Origin: Halorubrum sp. CSM-61
GTDB taxonomy: Archaea; Halobacteriota; Halobacteria; Halobacteriales; Haloferacaceae
Direction: 5' to 3'
Length of the DNA: 64,000 nucleotides
Assembly (NCBI RefSeq): GCF_003781945.1
Contig: NZ_RJJW01000003.1
Coordinates: 196,260-260,259 of the forward strand
The notes below the pieces were generated by a model. The model saw only the letters and a program-made list of their open reading frames with translations. It was not told the origin of the DNA and did no database searches. The position numbers and the translations under genes are program-made. Each line of letters opens with the position of its first letter. The stretch's first letter is position 1. Shown in pieces: positions 34,752 through 41,514 of this stretch.

Positions 34752-35536
34752 GCCCCGTCACCTCGCTCAGCGTCGTCGTTCCGGAGGTACCCGACGACGC
34801 GGTCGCGCGTCGCGGCCACGTCGCCGATCACGGTGATCGCGGGCGGCTCGATCCCCGCCTCGTCGCGGACCTCGACGATAGTGTCGAGGGTGCCGGTCGC
34901 GACGCGCATGTCGGGCCGCGTCGCCCGCTCGACCAGCGCGACGGGGGTGTCGCCGTCGAGCCCGGCGTCGCGGAGCTCCGCGGTGTACGCCGGGAGCTTG
35001 CCGACGCCCATCAGCACGACGAGGGTGCCGCCGGTGGCCGCGAGCGCGTCCCAGTCGACCGCCGACTCCTCCTTCGTCGGGTCCTCGTGGCCCGTGACGA
35101 AGGAGACGGAGGAGGCGTGGTCGCGGTGCGTCACCGGGATCCCGGCGACCGCGGGGCCCGCGATCGCGGAGGTGACGCCGGGGACGACCTCGAAGGGAAT
35201 CTCGGCGTCCGCGAGGTGTTCCGCCTCCTCGCCGCCGCGCCCGAAGACGAACGGGTCGCCGCCCTTCAGGCGGACGACCGACTTCCCCTCCCGCGCCAGC
35301 TCGACGAGGCGGCGGTTCGTGTACTCCTGCGGGGTCCACTCGCCGCCGGCCCGCTTCCCCACGTCCTCGCGCTTCTCCTCGGGGATCCGTCCGAGGATCT
35401 CCGGGCCGGGGAGCTTGTCGTGGAGCACCACGTCGGCCGACTCGATCAGGTCGGCGGCCCGCACCGTCAGCAGGTCCGGGTCGCCCGGGCCTGAGCCGAC
35501 GAGGTACACCGTTCCGAGGGAGTCCCCCTCACTCAT
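34748..35536 (-). CDS. cobA: uroporphyrinogen-III C-methyltransferase
   Basis: 262 residues, SUMT. The signature VYLVGSGPGDPDLLTVRAADLIESADVVLHD is at the N-terminus. Then KGGDPFVFGRGGEEAEHL, PGVTSAIAGPAVAGIPVTHR, VLMGVGKLPAYTAEL and PPAITVIGDVAATR. It adds two methyl groups from SAM to make precorrin-2, the branch to siroheme and cobalamin. The operon position between hemC and hemD, with ATGA overlaps, fits. Confidence 0.93.
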   Translation of the reverse strand: MSEGDSLGTVYLVGSGPGDPDLLTVRAADLIESADVVLHDKLPGPEILGRIPEEKREDVGKRAGGEWTPQEYTNRRLVELAREGKSVVRLKGGDPFVFGRGGEEAEHLADAEIPFEVVPGVTSAIAGPAVAGIPVTHRDHASSVSFVTGHEDPTKEESAVDWDALAATGGTLVVLMGVGKLPAYTAELRDAGLDGDTPVALVERATRPDMRVATGTLDTIVEVRDEAGIEPPAITVIGDVAATRDRVVGYLRNDDAERGDGA

Positions 35537-36788
35537 CGTTCGCCTCCTCCTCCGTCCCTTCCCGGGTCCCCTCGTCCGCCTCGGCCTCCGTCTCCTCGCG
35601 CGCCGTCTCGATCAGGTCCGCGGCGCCTCTGTCGGCGAGGTCCGCCGCGAACTCCTCCGCCGCCTTCGCGTGCGAGCGGATCGGGAGGTCGCGGGTGTCG
35701 GCCACCTCCTCGGTGCCGTCGGTCGAGAGCACGCGGACGCGGGTGTGGACGTGCTCGCCCTGCACGAGCGCGGAGACGCCGATCGGGGCGACGCAGCCGC
35801 CGTTGAGCTCGCCGAGGATCGTGCGTTCGACGGTGACGGCGACGCGGGTCCGCGGGTGGTCGACCGCGGAGCGAACGTCCTCGATCACGTCCGGGTCGGT
35901 CGCGGTGACGGCGATGGCGCCCTGCCCGGCCGCGGGGACGAACTCCTCGCGGGGGAGCCGCGTCGTGGGCACCTCGTAGAACAGCTCCGAGCGCCGGAGC
36001 CCGGCCTCAGCGAGGACGATGGCGTCGTACTCGGTCTCGACCTTCCGCTCCATCGCCGAGCGTTCGAGGTCCGAGAGCGAGTCGAACCACTCCTCGACGC
36101 TCCGGTCGAACTCCTCGTCGACCTCGTCTCCCGCTTCCACGTTGTTTCCGTCGTTTCCGTCGCCTTCGTCGTCGCCGAGCGCGTCCCAGTTCGGCTCGTC
36201 GGCGTCGCTCTCGCCGTCATCTCCCTCGCCGCTCTCTCCACCTTCCTCCGCCGTCGCCGCGCGCGCCTCGCCCGAGGCGATCAGCCGTCGCTCGTGTTCC
36301 GCCTGTAACCCCGGCGCGAGCAGCTTCTCGATCCGGGTGTCGACGTTGCCGCGGAGGGGTTCGACCACGAGATCGGGCCGGGCGGCCTTGATCTGGGCGG
36401 TCCGCCGGAGCGAGCCGGTGCCGACCACCGAGCCCGCGGGGAGGTCCTCGATCGCGAGGCCGTCGGGGTGGACGAGCACGTCGCCGGAGGGCGCGCGCTC
36501 GGGGACGCCGGCGATCACCACGTCGTCCATCCCCTCGGTGGGCACGTCCTTCAGCGAGTGGACGGCGAGGTCGGCGTCGCCGGAGAGCACCTCCTCGTCG
36601 AGCGCGCGCACGAAGGCGCCGGTCTTACCGAGGCGGTGGATCAGCTCGTCGGGGATCTGGTCGCCGCGGGTCTCGACGCGCCGGATCTCCACGTCGCGTC
36701 GGCGGCTCGACAGGGCGTCGCGGACGGTCCCGGCCTGCCGGAGGGCCAGGTCCGATCCGCGCGTCGCGAGCCTGAGCGTATCGGTCAT
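35529..36788 (-). CDS. hemC: hydroxymethylbilane synthase with an acidic insertion
   Basis: 419 residues from the ATG at 36788. The core is typical: LATRGSDLALRQA, TRGDQ, KDVPTEG, GTGSLRRTAQIKAARPDL, GNVDTRIEKL, and LGELNGGCVAPIGV with the Cys carrying the dipyrromethane cofactor. Unusual is an insert between residues about 158 and 252 (36033-36317) rich in Asp, Glu and Gly; most HemC proteins are about 310 residues. It polymerises four porphobilinogens. First gene of the tetrapyrrole operon. Confidence 0.92.
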   Translation of the reverse strand: MTDTLRLATRGSDLALRQAGTVRDALSSRRRDVEIRRVETRGDQIPDELIHRLGKTGAFVRALDEEVLSGDADLAVHSLKDVPTEGMDDVVIAGVPERAPSGDVLVHPDGLAIEDLPAGSVVGTGSLRRTAQIKAARPDLVVEPLRGNVDTRIEKLLAPGLQAEHERRLIASGEARAATAEEGGESGEGDDGESDADEPNWDALGDDEGDGNDGNNVEAGDEVDEEFDRSVEEWFDSLSDLERSAMERKVETEYDAIVLAEAGLRRSELFYEVPTTRLPREEFVPAAGQGAIAVTATDPDVIEDVRSAVDHPRTRVAVTVERTILGELNGGCVAPIGVSALVQGEHVHTRVRVLSTDGTEEVADTRDLPIRSHAKAAEEFAADLADRGAADLIETAREETEAEADEGTREGTEEEANDE

Positions 36789-36916
36789 ACCCGGACTGAG
36801 GTTCCCCGCGTTCAAAAGGGCACTAGTTCGGGCGTGACGTTGGCGCGGGAGCGGAATACGGGATCGGGGCGTGTGTACGTATCACGAGCGCTAAGCCGTC
36901 TGAGTCGTCGATGACA

Positions 36917-37109
36917 GTGAGAGAGTACATTTCGTGTGTTCTCCGAGGCGGTTGCAGTCCGTGTCGGATATTCGATCCCGCGAACCGTGAGAGTAGGTTT
37001 CGTGTGTTCTTGGGATGTTGTGTGGCGTGTCGGATACCCTAGATCTGCAAGCTGCTCGAGGCGAGCCGCTCGAAGTGAGTGAAGTGAGAGAGTACATTTC
37101 GTGTGTTCT
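36917..37109 (+). repeat. three direct copies of the GAGAGTA-TTTCGTGTGTTCT motif
   Basis: Copies at 36917-36942, 36987-37010 and 37084-37109 share GTGAGAG-GTA-TTTCGTGTGTTCT. Between copies a second motif GTGTCGGATA recurs (36961 and 37033), so the repeat unit is about 70-95 bases. A fourth copy lies inverted at 38231-38255 beyond the toxin-antitoxin genes. Confidence 0.75.
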
Positions 37110-37280
37110 CGAGAAACCAACGTAGAAAACCGAGAGCAGCAGTCAATACAGGTGACTCACTGAACGCTCAGTACGCCCGTTCACCGAACTGGTGATTCGT
37201 CCGATTTGACGCGAAATAACCAACAAACAAGCTAACATCCACTGAAGATGTCGCCGACGAGCGGCGTTTCTGCTCAGTGT

Positions 37281-37323
37281 TGGACTTCTGCCCAACGCTT
37301 ATGGCGTTGGGGTGTGTCCCAAC
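37281..37323. promoter_or_regulatory. overlapping inverted repeats, likely toxin-antitoxin operator
   Basis: CCCAACGC (37291-37298) pairs with GCGTTGGG (37304-37311) and GTTGGG (37306-37311) pairs with CCCAAC (37318-37323), so the middle arm is shared. A further TTGG at 37280 extends the alternation. CTTATG inside could be the TATA box. The ATG at 37333 is ten bases on. Autorepression by the downstream winged-helix protein is plausible. Confidence 0.5.
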
Positions 37324-37332
37324 ACGTAAGGG

Positions 37333-37650
37333 ATGCCCCCAGAGCCGCTCTTCCAATACACGCACGTCGAAGCCGGCCTCGTCGAGAACGTCGTGCTTCG
37401 GCCGACTGACGACACCGAGACGTACCCCTCGGGTTGGAAGTACACGCTCCATCTGGGCACCCTCGACGATCTCACGCTCGTCCGGTACGACAACTCCCAC
37501 GAGGACACGAAGGGGCACGAGCATCACACCGCAGCCGGCGATCTCGACGGCGTCGAGTTCCCCGGGATGGAGGAGCTGCTCGTCGAGTTCTGGGCGAGCG
37601 CGGACGAGTACTGGGACGCTGTCGGCGGCGACCCGCCCCGGCCACACTGA
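37333..37650 (+). CDS. DUF6516 family protein, probable toxin of a toxin-antitoxin pair
   Basis: 105 residues: GWKYTLHLGTLDDLTLVRYDNSHEDTKGHEHHTAAGD near the middle, then FPGMEELLVEFWASADEYWD. This is the pattern of DUF6516, which in haloarchaea sits directly before an HVO_A0114-type DNA-binding protein. The His-rich KGHEHH stretch could be catalytic or metal-binding. Molecular activity is unknown to me. The partner gene starts 33 bases downstream. Four copies of a repeat flank the pair. Confidence 0.72.
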   Translation: MPPEPLFQYTHVEAGLVENVVLRPTDDTETYPSGWKYTLHLGTLDDLTLVRYDNSHEDTKGHEHHTAAGDLDGVEFPGMEELLVEFWASADEYWDAVGGDPPRPH

Positions 37651-37683
37651 TCGAACACCACCCGACCCACCGCCACCCCGACC

Positions 37684-38100
37684 ATGACCACACTCCACAT
37701 CACCGTCGGCGACCGAGAACAGACCCGTCAGGACGCACTCCAATTCGTCCAAGGCGTCGAGGCCGACGATCTCGACGACCAGGACGGAAAAGCGACGCTC
37801 CAGTTCGGAACCTACGATGACCTCGTCGACAGTCTCACCCCGCTCCGCCTAGAGCTCATCCGAGCGATCGCTGAGGAAGCTCCCGAAAGCATGCGCGAAG
37901 CGGCACGGCTCGTCGAACGAGACGTATCCGACGTCCACTCTGACCTGAAGCAGTTGGAAGTACTGGGTATCCTGACGCTCGAAGCGGGCGGCCCCAGCGG
38001 CGCGATACAACCGATCGTCCCATTCGACCGCATCGAAGTCCACATCGACTACCCGCTCATCGATAACGGCGATGCCGACAGCGCCCCCGCGAGTGCGTAG
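37684..38100 (+). CDS. HVO_A0114-family winged-helix protein, probable antitoxin
   Basis: 138 residues. The central part LTPLRLELIRAIAEEAPESMREAARLVERDVSDVHSDLKQLEVLGILTLEAGG is a winged helix-turn-helix, typical of the HVO_A0114 putative DNA-binding family. It follows DUF6516 as a pair and likely represses its own operon through the TTGG/CCAA operator at 37281-37323. The antitoxin role is inferred from pairing. Confidence 0.78.
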   Translation: MTTLHITVGDREQTRQDALQFVQGVEADDLDDQDGKATLQFGTYDDLVDSLTPLRLELIRAIAEEAPESMREAARLVERDVSDVHSDLKQLEVLGILTLEAGGPSGAIQPIVPFDRIEVHIDYPLIDNGDADSAPASA

Positions 38101-38230
38101 TCGGGTCGTCTCAAACTGGGAGGATTCTCAGCGATCAATTCGCAGATCTCATCGACCAGCTGTTTCAGACGATGATATCTCCGAAGGATAGTATTTCAAC
38201 ACCGCCAACCAAAGTGTTCTCGTATTTCAC

Positions 38231-38255
38231 AGAACACACGAAACGTACTCTCTCG
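38231..38255 (-). repeat. inverted fourth copy of the TTTCGTGTGTTCT motif
   Basis: AGAACACACGAAACGTACTC is the reverse complement of the motif found three times at 36917-37109 apart from one or two bases. With those it brackets the toxin-antitoxin pair in opposite orientations. Confidence 0.7.
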
Positions 38256-38275
38256 TACGCGAGATCATAACGAGA

Positions 38276-38283
38276 TTTATAAG
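38276..38283 (+). promoter_or_regulatory. TATA box upstream of sufS
   Basis: TTTATAAG, about 100 bases before the sufS ATG, which would leave a leader of roughly 70 bases. Confidence 0.4.
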
Positions 38284-38381
38284 GACGAACCAGCGGTGAA
38301 GCTCTCTAGATCCACCTCCGAGACACTGGCAACACGTACCGGACCGAAGGGGTGTTAGTGCTCGGGGCCCAACTCCGGGTA

Positions 38382-39659
38382 ATGGGAGTTCAGGAACAGT
38401 ACCCGTTCGACGTCGAGGCCGTCCGCGCCGACTTCCCGATCCTCGATCGGAAGGTCGGCGGCGATCCGGAGACGCCGGGCGAGGGGCCGGGCGACGACAC
38501 CCCGCTCGTCTACCTCGACAACGCGGCGACGTCGCACACGCCGGACCCCGTCGTCGACACGATCGCGGACTACTACCGCGGCTACAACGCCAACGTCCAC
38601 CGCGGGATCCACCAGCTGAGCCAGGAGGCCTCCGTCGCCTACGAGGAGGCACACGACACCGTCGCCGACTTCATCGGGGCGTCGGGCCGCGAGGAGATCG
38701 TCTTCACGAAGAACACCACGGAGGCGATGAACCTCGTCGCGTACGCGTGGGGGCTCGAAGAGTTAGGTCCCGGCGACAACGTCGTCCTCACGCAGATGGA
38801 GCACCACGCGTCGCTCGTCACCTGGCAGCAGATCGGCAAGCGAACCGGCGCCGACGCCCGGTTCATCGAGGTGACCGACGAGGGGCGGCTCGACATGGAG
38901 CACGCCGCGGAGTGTATCGACGACGACACGCAGATGGTGTCGGTCGTCCACGTCTCGAACACGCTGGGCACCGTCAACCCGATCCCCGAGATCGCGGCGA
39001 TGGCTCACGACCACGACGCGTACGTCTTCGCGGACGGCGCGCAGTCGGTGCCGACGCGCCCGGTCGACGTCGAGGACCTCGGCGTCGACTTCCTCGCCTT
39101 CTCCGCCCACAAGATGTGCGGCCCGACCGGTATCGGGGCGCTGTACGGCCGCGAGGAGATCTTAGAGGAGATGCAGCCGTACCTCTACGGCGGCGACATG
39201 ATCCGGCGCGTCTCCTTCGAGGACTCCACGTGGGAGGACCTGCCGTGGAAGTTCGAGGCCGGCACGCCCTCGATCGCGCAGGGGATCGCCTTCGCGGCCG
39301 CGATCGAGTACTTAGAGGATATCGGCATGGAGAACGTGCAGGCCCACGAGGACCTGCTGGCCGAGTACGCGTACGACGAGCTGACCGACCTCGGCGGCGT
39401 GGAGATCTACGGCCCGCCGGGCCACGACCGCGGCGGGCTCGTCGCGTTCAACGTCGAGGGCGTCCACGCTCACGACCTGTCCAGCATACTCAACGACTAC
39501 GGCGTCGCGATCCGCGCCGGCGACCACTGCACCCAGCCGCTCCACGACGAGCTCGGCGTCGCCGCCTCCGCGCGCGCCTCGTTCTACCTCTACAACACCG
39601 TCGAGGAGGTCGACGCCTTGATCGAGGCGGTCGGCGAGGCGCGCGACCTGTTCGCGTAA
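38382..39659 (+). CDS. sufS: SufS-type cysteine desulfurase
   Basis: 425 residues from the ATG at 38382. Visible: VYLDNAATSHTPDPVVD, NANVHRGIHQLSQEAS, VFTKNTTEAMNLVAYAWG, FLAFSAHKMCGPTGIGALYG (PLP Lys) and IRAGDHCTQPLHDELGV (active-site Cys region), the SufS-like group II arrangement. It takes sulfur from cysteine for Fe-S clusters. The SufU scaffold gene lies 2.5 kb downstream, past an accessory insertion, so the two may once have been closer neighbours. Confidence 0.93.
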   Translation: MGVQEQYPFDVEAVRADFPILDRKVGGDPETPGEGPGDDTPLVYLDNAATSHTPDPVVDTIADYYRGYNANVHRGIHQLSQEASVAYEEAHDTVADFIGASGREEIVFTKNTTEAMNLVAYAWGLEELGPGDNVVLTQMEHHASLVTWQQIGKRTGADARFIEVTDEGRLDMEHAAECIDDDTQMVSVVHVSNTLGTVNPIPEIAAMAHDHDAYVFADGAQSVPTRPVDVEDLGVDFLAFSAHKMCGPTGIGALYGREEILEEMQPYLYGGDMIRRVSFEDSTWEDLPWKFEAGTPSIAQGIAFAAAIEYLEDIGMENVQAHEDLLAEYAYDELTDLGGVEIYGPPGHDRGGLVAFNVEGVHAHDLSSILNDYGVAIRAGDHCTQPLHDELGVAASARASFYLYNTVEEVDALIEAVGEARDLFA

Positions 39660-39814
39660 GCGCGGCCTTTCGGACACCGATAGCGCGCTCGACGCAGATC
39701 GTTTCGGGGCCCAGTCGTTTGCTTGTGAGTCGGCATTCCTCAGTTGAGACACGGGTGGATACTAAAAAGAGCCAGTCAGGAGACGGAGCGGAGGTTGTCT
39801 ACCTAATCAAAGAT

Positions 39815-39822
39815 TTTATATA
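39815..39822 (+). promoter_or_regulatory. TATA box of the zinc micro-protein gene
   Basis: TTTATATA within an AT-rich run, 23-30 bases before the ATG at 39845. Confidence 0.6.
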
Positions 39823-39844
39823 TTATATATTTAGTTCGCCTAGT

Positions 39845-39958
39845 ATGGGTTTGTTTGACCGATTTAAAAAGTGGGAGTGTGCCAATTGCGGGAAAAAATA
39901 CCGCTCAGAACCAACAGAGTGTAACAACTGCGGACATACGGTATATAATCAGATTTAG
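39845..39958 (+). CDS. 37-residue zinc-ribbon micro-protein
   Basis: MGLFDRFKKWECANCGKKYR then SEPTECNNCGHTVYNQI: two CxxC pairs separated by about 13 residues, a compact zinc ribbon. The TATA box 23 bases upstream and the low GC content compared with neighbours support a real, recently acquired gene. Haloarchaea have many such one-domain zinc-finger proteins; their partners are mostly unknown. It converges on the zinc-finger/CAP gene, whose stop is five bases away, with the two reading toward each other. Confidence 0.7.
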   Translation: MGLFDRFKKWECANCGKKYRSEPTECNNCGHTVYNQI

Positions 39959-39962
39959 CAAT

Positions 39963-41174
39963 TCAGGCGCAGAACTTCTGCGTCGCGTAGACCTTGTCGT
40001 CTTCTGTGAGTTCGATACCAATTCCGGTTTGTGACCACTCTTGTCGAAGCAGATTTTCGCGGTGTCCCGGTGAGTTCATCCACTGAGTAACGAGTTCCTC
40101 GGCGAGAGTTTCTTCATCCCCGATGTATACCTCTCCTTCCGATGTTTCTACTCGTTTTTGGTACCACGACTGTGCAACGTTTTCACCGCCGAAGTTGCAA
40201 TTTGCCATTGCGAGACGTTCATCTGTGGTCGATCCCGGGAGATCGTGCGCTAGTTCGTCATGTTCGACCATATCAACGCTGTGTAACCGGGCTTGTTCTT
40301 GCAGACTAACCGACGATGAAAGTCTCGACAATTCCCTCTCTGCCCTTCTCTCGTTGATGTCCTCTCGAACGAGCCGCTCGACTTTCTGCTCGTCGAGCTG
40401 TCCCGGTTCGGTAGCGTTCAACGCTGTATCCGCCAGCGGGGAGACGATCTCCCCGGGAGATGAACCGACAGGACCCACGCCTATCTGACCAGCGAGTAAG
40501 AGTGCGACACCGATTATTAGGGCCAGTTTAGTCGCTTTCCAGACGCTGTCAGCTGGATATGTAAATACGCGTTTTACGAAACCGGTCACTGATGAGGCCA
40601 ACCACATTAGCACACCCACTACGAGCCAAAAAGCGTTTGAGAACCCACTACTCTCGGAGTTTTCATCTTTAGACATCTGGTTTTTGTCTGAACTATCACG
40701 AATTATTGATCCATCAGGTGCGACATCAGGTGACCCTGCAGTATCAACATCGTTTTCTTGTTGATCGGTTGGGGCACCTGCCGTGGGAGGATCAAAGCAC
40801 TCCGAGCGGTGTGCGCCGATGTGTTCACCGCAGTACACCTCCCCACAATACGGACAGCCCGCGATCTCATGATCGCGTAGCGGTGTTCCGCAGGTTTGGC
40901 ACTCGGCTGTTGACTTCGGCTTCTCGTCGGCAGGGTGTTTTCGAGTGCGTTTCGTGGAGTCTGAGGCGTCGACGTTTGATAACCGAAAATCGTCTTTAAA
41001 CCACGGCCCTACATCTCCCTCTTCACGCTTCAGTCGGCGTTCTGCCTTCTCAACTTCAAGAGCGACACAATCATGCGATTCGGGTAGTCGACACTTGGTA
41101 CAAAATGTGCCGTTACACCGACTGCAGGTATACTCAAGGGCCTTCAACTCGCGACCGCAGTGGTCGCACTCCAT
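39963..41174 (-). CDS. AN1-type zinc finger membrane protein with a C-terminal CAP domain
   Basis: 403 residues. Residues 1-35 (ECDHCGRELKALEYTCSRCNGTFCTKCRLPESHDC) look like an AN1 zinc finger, and residues 92-127 (CQTCGTPLRDHEIAGCPYCGEVYCGEHIGAHRSEC) a second zinc-binding module. Hydrophobic segments at about 182-202 and 217-237 follow. The last 135 residues are a CAP/SCP domain (RRAERELSRLSSSVSLQEQARLHSVDMVEHDELAHD, ENVAQSW, LVTQWMNSPGHRENLL). The CAP part is probably outside the membrane and the zinc fingers inside. Codon use and GC are lower than the neighbours. Confidence 0.82.
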   Translation of the reverse strand: MECDHCGRELKALEYTCSRCNGTFCTKCRLPESHDCVALEVEKAERRLKREEGDVGPWFKDDFRLSNVDASDSTKRTRKHPADEKPKSTAECQTCGTPLRDHEIAGCPYCGEVYCGEHIGAHRSECFDPPTAGAPTDQQENDVDTAGSPDVAPDGSIIRDSSDKNQMSKDENSESSGFSNAFWLVVGVLMWLASSVTGFVKRVFTYPADSVWKATKLALIIGVALLLAGQIGVGPVGSSPGEIVSPLADTALNATEPGQLDEQKVERLVREDINERRAERELSRLSSSVSLQEQARLHSVDMVEHDELAHDLPGSTTDERLAMANCNFGGENVAQSWYQKRVETSEGEVYIGDEETLAEELVTQWMNSPGHRENLLRQEWSQTGIGIELTEDDKVYATQKFCA

Positions 41175-41514
41175 ACTCTTCGGTGAACCGGGTTTGGTAT
41201 AGATTTATTGATAAAATTTCGCACCTGAACATTCGCCGGAACACGGATGGAGTGCTAAGCTGGTCCCGAACGTCGACATGCCGGAGGTCCATTTCGATTC
41301 CGGTCGCGATCCCACCGAAGTTACCAGCAACCGCAAGCGTAGCGGTCGATGAGGTGCTGAGTTCGGTTGTGAGGCGATCCCGGTGTGACCGGTTGTACCG
41401 AGTCGTGCCAACGACGCTCGCACCATATTTATTATCTACCGAGTAAACATTCATTTGAAGAAGAATAACAACTCGCGTTGTAGTCCTCCGATGAGTTGTC
41501 GCCCGTATCCAACA
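41175..41514. other. intergenic stretch, no gene supported
   Basis: 340 bases, AT-rich at both ends (promoters). A 106-residue minus-strand frame ending at 41134 overlaps the start of the CAP gene and shows no family motif. Confidence 0.4.

Follow-up and report, generated by a model that had tools for sequence, protein, structure and literature searches.

A mobile TumE toxin-antitoxin unit within the probable remnant of an orc1/cdc6-adjacent replication origin in Halorubrum sp. CSM-61

We analysed a 64,000-nucleotide stretch of the Halorubrum sp. CSM-61 genome (contig NZ_RJJW01000003.1, positions 196,260 to 260,259; hereafter the window), in which a two-gene toxin-antitoxin (TA) unit is bracketed by four copies of a short repeat. 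The site is bordered on the left by hemC, encoding porphobilinogen deaminase (35529..36785, minus strand, PF01379), and on the right by a sufS-like gene for a class-V aminotransferase (38385..39659, plus strand, PF00266), which we take to be a cysteine desulfurase. Exact copies of TTTCGTGTGTTCT are found at positions 36930-36942, 36998-37010 and 37097-37109 on the plus strand and at 38231-38243 on the minus strand, confirming the three direct copies and one inverted copy described in the initial annotation of this stretch. With up to two mismatches allowed, the window exhibits five matches against 0.49 expected, a number reached in none of 100 shuffles. The genome-wide search proposed in that annotation yields no exact copy in the 3.7 Mb genome besides these four, and two other places with one mismatch. 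Alignment of the copies reveals a conserved repeat unit longer than the annotated motif, approximately GAGAGAGTACRTTTCGTGTGTTCT. The resulting boxes, resembling origin recognition boxes (ORBs) and containing the exact matches as their cores, are located at 36919..36942 (box 1), 36987..37010 (box 2) and 37086..37109 (box 3) on the plus strand and at 38231..38254 on the minus strand (box 4, the outermost right box). The third and fourth copies are 1.12 kb apart and enclose only two genes, in agreement with the size (about 1.1 kb) and gene content first noted.

The first of these genes (37333..37650, plus strand, 105 aa) encodes a TumE (DUF6516) toxin (PF20126, E-value = 5e-11), and the second (37684..38100, plus strand, 138 aa) a winged-helix protein of the HVO_A0114 family, a putative antitoxin (PF25212, E-value = 2e-25). 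Both domain matches are above the cut-offs, and the two genes present the combination of a TumE-domain protein and a DNA-binding partner in one operon that characterizes TumE-TumA pairs. By analogy, the pair may work as toxin and antitoxin; for TumE pairs such working rests on the six proteobacterial pairs tested in PMC10584680. Two GTTGGR-N6-CCCAAC dyads (37279..37323, plus strand; dyad starts 37279 and 37306) precede the toxin gene and are likely the antitoxin operator. A looser form of this dyad is present in at least one copy at 29 of 30 TumE loci, and the two in the window are the sole such places in the 64 kb. The TA pair is self-contained, its own promoter dyads being the likely operator, and the dyads provide a candidate operator for the HVO_A0114 family. 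A role as a defence system was rejected, the two proteins having no match in padloc.

TumE relatives (E-value of 1e-10 or better) are encoded in 81 of 170 genomes of the family, and DNA related to the TA unit is found on 44 plasmid records. Each of the 29 other fetched TumE loci matches the unit at 73-94% nucleotide identity; the similarity is limited to about 37172-38207, plus one 31-base match at 37144-37174. At the level of sequence, these alignments demonstrate that the unit is mobile, in that it occupies unrelated places elsewhere. Its 3' end carries an eroded transposon-like terminal repeat (38190..38207, minus strand). In another genome (G119, locus L129) the TA unit ends in the exact form, GGCTCTGTTGAAATCCTC, and the same sequence adjoins a DDE transposase gene (PF01609) at locus L141, which makes a transposon-type delivery of the TA unit plausible. 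No copy of the repeat was found next to the IS6 transposase of locus L278, and a link to IS6 elements was dropped on that account. On the left side, CAATACAGGTGACTCAC (37144..37160, plus strand) is a possible mobile-element remnant, being a dispersed sequence often found near GGCTCTGTTGAAATCC-like ends. Sequences of this type are dispersed in 14 of 52 genomes of the genus (at most two mismatches in 19 bases), sometimes in tandem.

The boxes have a different distribution. With at most one mismatch, GTASRTTTCGTGTGTTCT is found in 15 of the 170 family genomes, and a reversed control pattern in none. The matches are clustered, forward copies being followed by reverse copies about 1.3-1.7 kb on. 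At three Halorubrum hemC/sufS sites, those of H. aidingense (G106), H. kocurii (G120) and H. lipolyticum (G123), all of which also carry box 1, the converging arrays enclose an intact gene of about 400 codons. This gene is an orc1/cdc6 (TIGR02928, E-value = 3e-122; Cdc6_lid and Cdc6_C domains), its product exhibiting the AAA+ ATPase, Cdc6 lid and C-terminal winged helix of the Orc1/Cdc6 family (PF13191, PF22703, PF09079 and TIGR02928, all above cut-off). The same array-orc-array unit is located at other genomic places in G011, G046 and G133. A class-wide search detected this Orc with an E-value of at most 1e-125 in 79 of 391 genomes. Thirty of its loci were fetched, and at 28 of them the gene has forward boxes to its left and reverse boxes to its right (exceptions: L095 and L096). 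A named genome collection, taking in Halobacterium, Haloarcula, Haloferax and Natrinema species and sharing some species with the class-wide search, gave a similar picture: 32 of 37 loci at 66% or higher Orc identity are flanked on either side, at a distance of no more than 1 kb, by converging boxes, compared with one of 23 loci at 53-62% and none of 20 below 53%. Among the 30 TumE loci, converging arrays are present only at the window's own. These distributions, again a matter of sequence, establish the tie of the motif to one Orc clade.

Consistent with this tie, the motif was not found at 11 fetched regions of the own genome carrying other Orc genes, which cover 13 of its 16 Orc matches. 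The H. ezzemoulense locus L214, whose Orc belongs to the next subclade (60% identity), has boxes that share the core but add a G-string (AGAACAGACGAAACGAGGGGTGT vs AGAACACACGAAACGTACTCTC in the window): in ORB orientation the window motif ends in TACTCTC, where the L214 boxes have GAGGGGTGT. As PMC3528665 links the ORB box type to the Orc family, and the box type follows the Orc family here too, we consider the motif to be, most plausibly, the ORB used by a single haloarchaeal Orc1/Cdc6 family. The window motif offers a candidate for the ORB of an Orc family whose boxes lack the usual G-string.

The hemC and sufS genes adjoin in 25 of the 52 genus genomes (counted by eye). The comparison of sites with and without the TA pair, also suggested in the initial annotation, shows that the arrays at hemC/sufS enclose an intact orc, a truncated orc or the TA pair, or persist as relics. 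Of 21 sites examined, three carry an intact orc gene and arrays, two carry arrays and a truncated orc gene, one is that of the window, one is a relic and 14 lack arrays. The truncated copies, in H. amylolyticum (G108) and G128, retain C-terminal parts only (Orc residues 97-397 and 259-397, respectively), with their boxes kept. The relic site (G131) holds a histidine-kinase gene, a right box with one change and a degenerate left box, and has no orc; there the right box is fused to the 3' flank of the TA unit, just as it is in the window. This shared junction indicates that the TA insertion probably predates the split of the window and G131 lineages, or moved between them. Array-bearing and array-free sites are mixed in a tree of the site, which is based on 333-360 flank bases per site, has several low support values and is used for this point only. 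The hemC/sufS site of G121 (L111) has no boxes and contains an insert of more than 2 kb with a long transposase-like open reading frame (ORF).

Aligned with the orc-bearing sites, the window is similar across the three left boxes; the similarity ends at about 37138-37142 (left junction, 37138..37144) and restarts at the outermost right box. Of the features of an origin, the window retains repeated ORB elements in inverted arrangement (three plus-strand copies and one minus-strand copy). In the three orc-bearing sites, the stretch from box 3 to orc is 55-57% AT, with 65-67% in the richest 60 bases. The window has lost this AT-rich stretch; its segment from box 3 to TumE is of different sequence, with 48% AT overall and 58% in its richest 60 bases. 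A full-length adjacent orc1/cdc6, present in G106, G120 and G123, is missing from the bracket. The own genome contains 16 Orc-like matches, the best of which (43% identity) is on another contig and flanked by other repeats; no cognate Orc for the boxes was found among them. Site by site, the alignments demonstrate the replacement of the orc gene by the TA unit. Because it has no adjacent full-length orc1/cdc6, we term the window locus a remnant rather than an origin.

We consider it very likely that the four repeats are the leftover frame of a lost orc1/cdc6-adjacent replication origin, in which the initiator gene was replaced by a mobile TA unit. An orc gene of this family would normally lie between a forward and a reverse box array. 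The lineage of the window would have lost this gene, the AT-rich stretch preceding it and the inner right boxes, and the TumE/HVO_A0114 unit would then have filled the vacated place, probably by a transposon-type event. The origin would now be inactive at this site, a transposon being the presumed cause of the orc-to-TA swap. The four boxes would be left as presumed Orc-binding sites without their initiator gene, and may be relics or may retain the capacity to bind a related initiator.

Several points speak against this interpretation. Among the 37 close Orc loci, five have boxes on a single side; the tblastn span extends over the right boxes in two of these, and three are partial genes. Three weak Orc matches among the 16 of the own genome are outside the fetched regions. 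Haloarchaeal ORB-like elements carry a G-string according to PMC3528665, and the window motif has none. The terminal repeat of the TA unit was not found in the window within three mismatches, its end being eroded.

The initial annotation had proposed a mobile or exchangeable cassette, with the repeats as sites of a recombinase or of the antitoxin. Exchangeability holds for the content of the bracket, which differs across species at the hemC/sufS site; the flanking sites, however, do not travel with the cargo. The compact two-gene unit with direct and inverted copies around it, together with this variable content, would suit recombination sites of a cassette carrying the TA pair. Yet the TA unit is found at 29 other fetched loci without the motif, the motif accompanies an orc gene at 28 of 30 loci and its arrays follow one Orc clade across genera, and the bracket has no recombinase, integrase or transposase gene. 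Moreover, the arrays vary in spacing and have from one to six or more copies per side, unlike fixed site pairs. We therefore rejected the recombinase-site cassette as very improbable. The DNA-binding protein encoded within the bracket and the three copies upstream of its operon could suggest that the HVO_A0114 antitoxin uses the copies as operators. The same 29 motif-free TumE loci contradict this idea, as do the operon's own dyads, found next to the start codon at 29 of the 30 loci; we rejected it as hardly credible. A phage source of the bracket was likewise discarded, the stretch 36860-38320 having no match in the phages collection.

A more serious alternative concerns the present role of the boxes. 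They may have been kept by selection and bind an initiator in trans, serving a trans-dependent origin or initiator titration. Box 4 differs between the window and G131 at one of 24 positions, compared with 47 of 155 in the flanks (binomial P = 0.002), although this test concerns one box in one genome pair, picked after looking. The two genomes share the TA-side junction and both have no orc at the site, but the left relic of G131 is degenerate. The left array of the window gives no clear excess of conservation, with window-specific changes in one of 59 motif columns and nine of 116 spacer columns, too few to decide. A precedent for an initiator sink is provided by the oriC2D ORB clusters of Haloarcula hispanica, and plasmids carrying oriC2 show incompatibility with a host that has oriC2 itself (PMC3936714). 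Among 25 array loci examined elsewhere, nine (G007, G044, G066 at a contig end, G253, G292, G327, G356, G384 and G403) have at least two boxes and no detected orc, so initiator loss that leaves boxes behind recurs; the 25 loci were chosen for having no obvious orc match, and the nine give no estimate of frequency. Orc identity in the own genome does not exceed 43%. We regard selection for binding in trans as unlikely. In a more elaborate version, the orphan boxes would be selected as a decoy: by sequestering a related Orc protein they would keep out plasmids or integrated replicons of that origin family, and the TA pair would maintain the locus, so that a dead origin would serve as a chromosomal exclusion island. 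The oriC2 titration and plasmid incompatibility in Haloarcula hispanica (PMC3936714) make such a decoy conceivable, but we find it quite improbable.

A regular link between orphan boxes and TA genes was looked for at the orphan loci; no consistent pattern was found and none is claimed. Individual loci have varied contents. In G044 (L044 5471-7518), two boxes of the same direction enclose a DUF7342 gene and a partner gene, with no orc, which gives a further case of a gene pair within orphan boxes. The orphan array of G007 (L045 4323-5949) lies beside a Fic/DOC-family gene. In G114 (L260 1709-7431), the outer boxes enclose a different Orc gene (403 aa); the clade's own orc is present as a broken copy on the right, and an HVO_A0114-family gene lies immediately beyond the boxes. 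G327 and G403, of one genus (L270 2775-2936 and L272 2712-2873), have a forward and a reverse box about 160 bases apart and no orc, as if the gene had been cleanly cut out. In the window itself, a low-GC stretch at 39700-41500, 3' of sufS (about 45-57% vs about 69% around it), contains a 403-codon ORF on the minus strand.

The preferred interpretation, a lost origin whose frame now holds a TA unit, turns a repeat bracket into a readable history: an extra origin would have arrived with its initiator gene and lost it, and the frame of boxes would have been reused by a TA unit. Because the Halorubrum hemC/sufS site preserves an intact, a truncated, a replaced and a relic stage, it opens to direct test both origin loss and any lasting function of boxes deprived of their initiator. 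Origins adjacent to orc/cdc6 genes with ORBs on both flanks have been described in several haloarchaea, including genes of Halorubrum lacusprofundi (PMC3528665), and exhibit the same two-sided layout; the letters of the window motif were not found in the main text of that paper, and the likeness seen concerns box layout. At oriC2-cdc6E of Haloarcula hispanica, the downstream box cluster oriC2D is inferred to titrate Cdc6E (PMC3936714); that origin still has its initiator gene and is active, whereas in the window the initiator is gone and a TA pair occupies the frame. The TumE-TumA superfamily comprises two-gene operons of a TumE/DUF6516 toxin and a DNA-binding partner (PMC10584680), as in the window, where the toxin gene comes first; the tested pairs are proteobacterial, and HVO_A0114 is not mentioned in the sections of that paper drawn on here. 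We found no report of a TA pair inside an ORB frame in the open-access literature searched. A further parallel is provided by the disrupted or replaced cdc6D origins of Haloarcula (PMC4441112), where, as proposed for the window, an insertion coupled to a deletion within a variable region removed a chromosomal origin. The replacing gene in that case is a transposase, whereas here it is a TA unit, with boxes surviving on both sides. Origin loss is already known in haloarchaea; an ORB frame that has lost its initiator gene and harbours a TA pair instead is a new variation on it.
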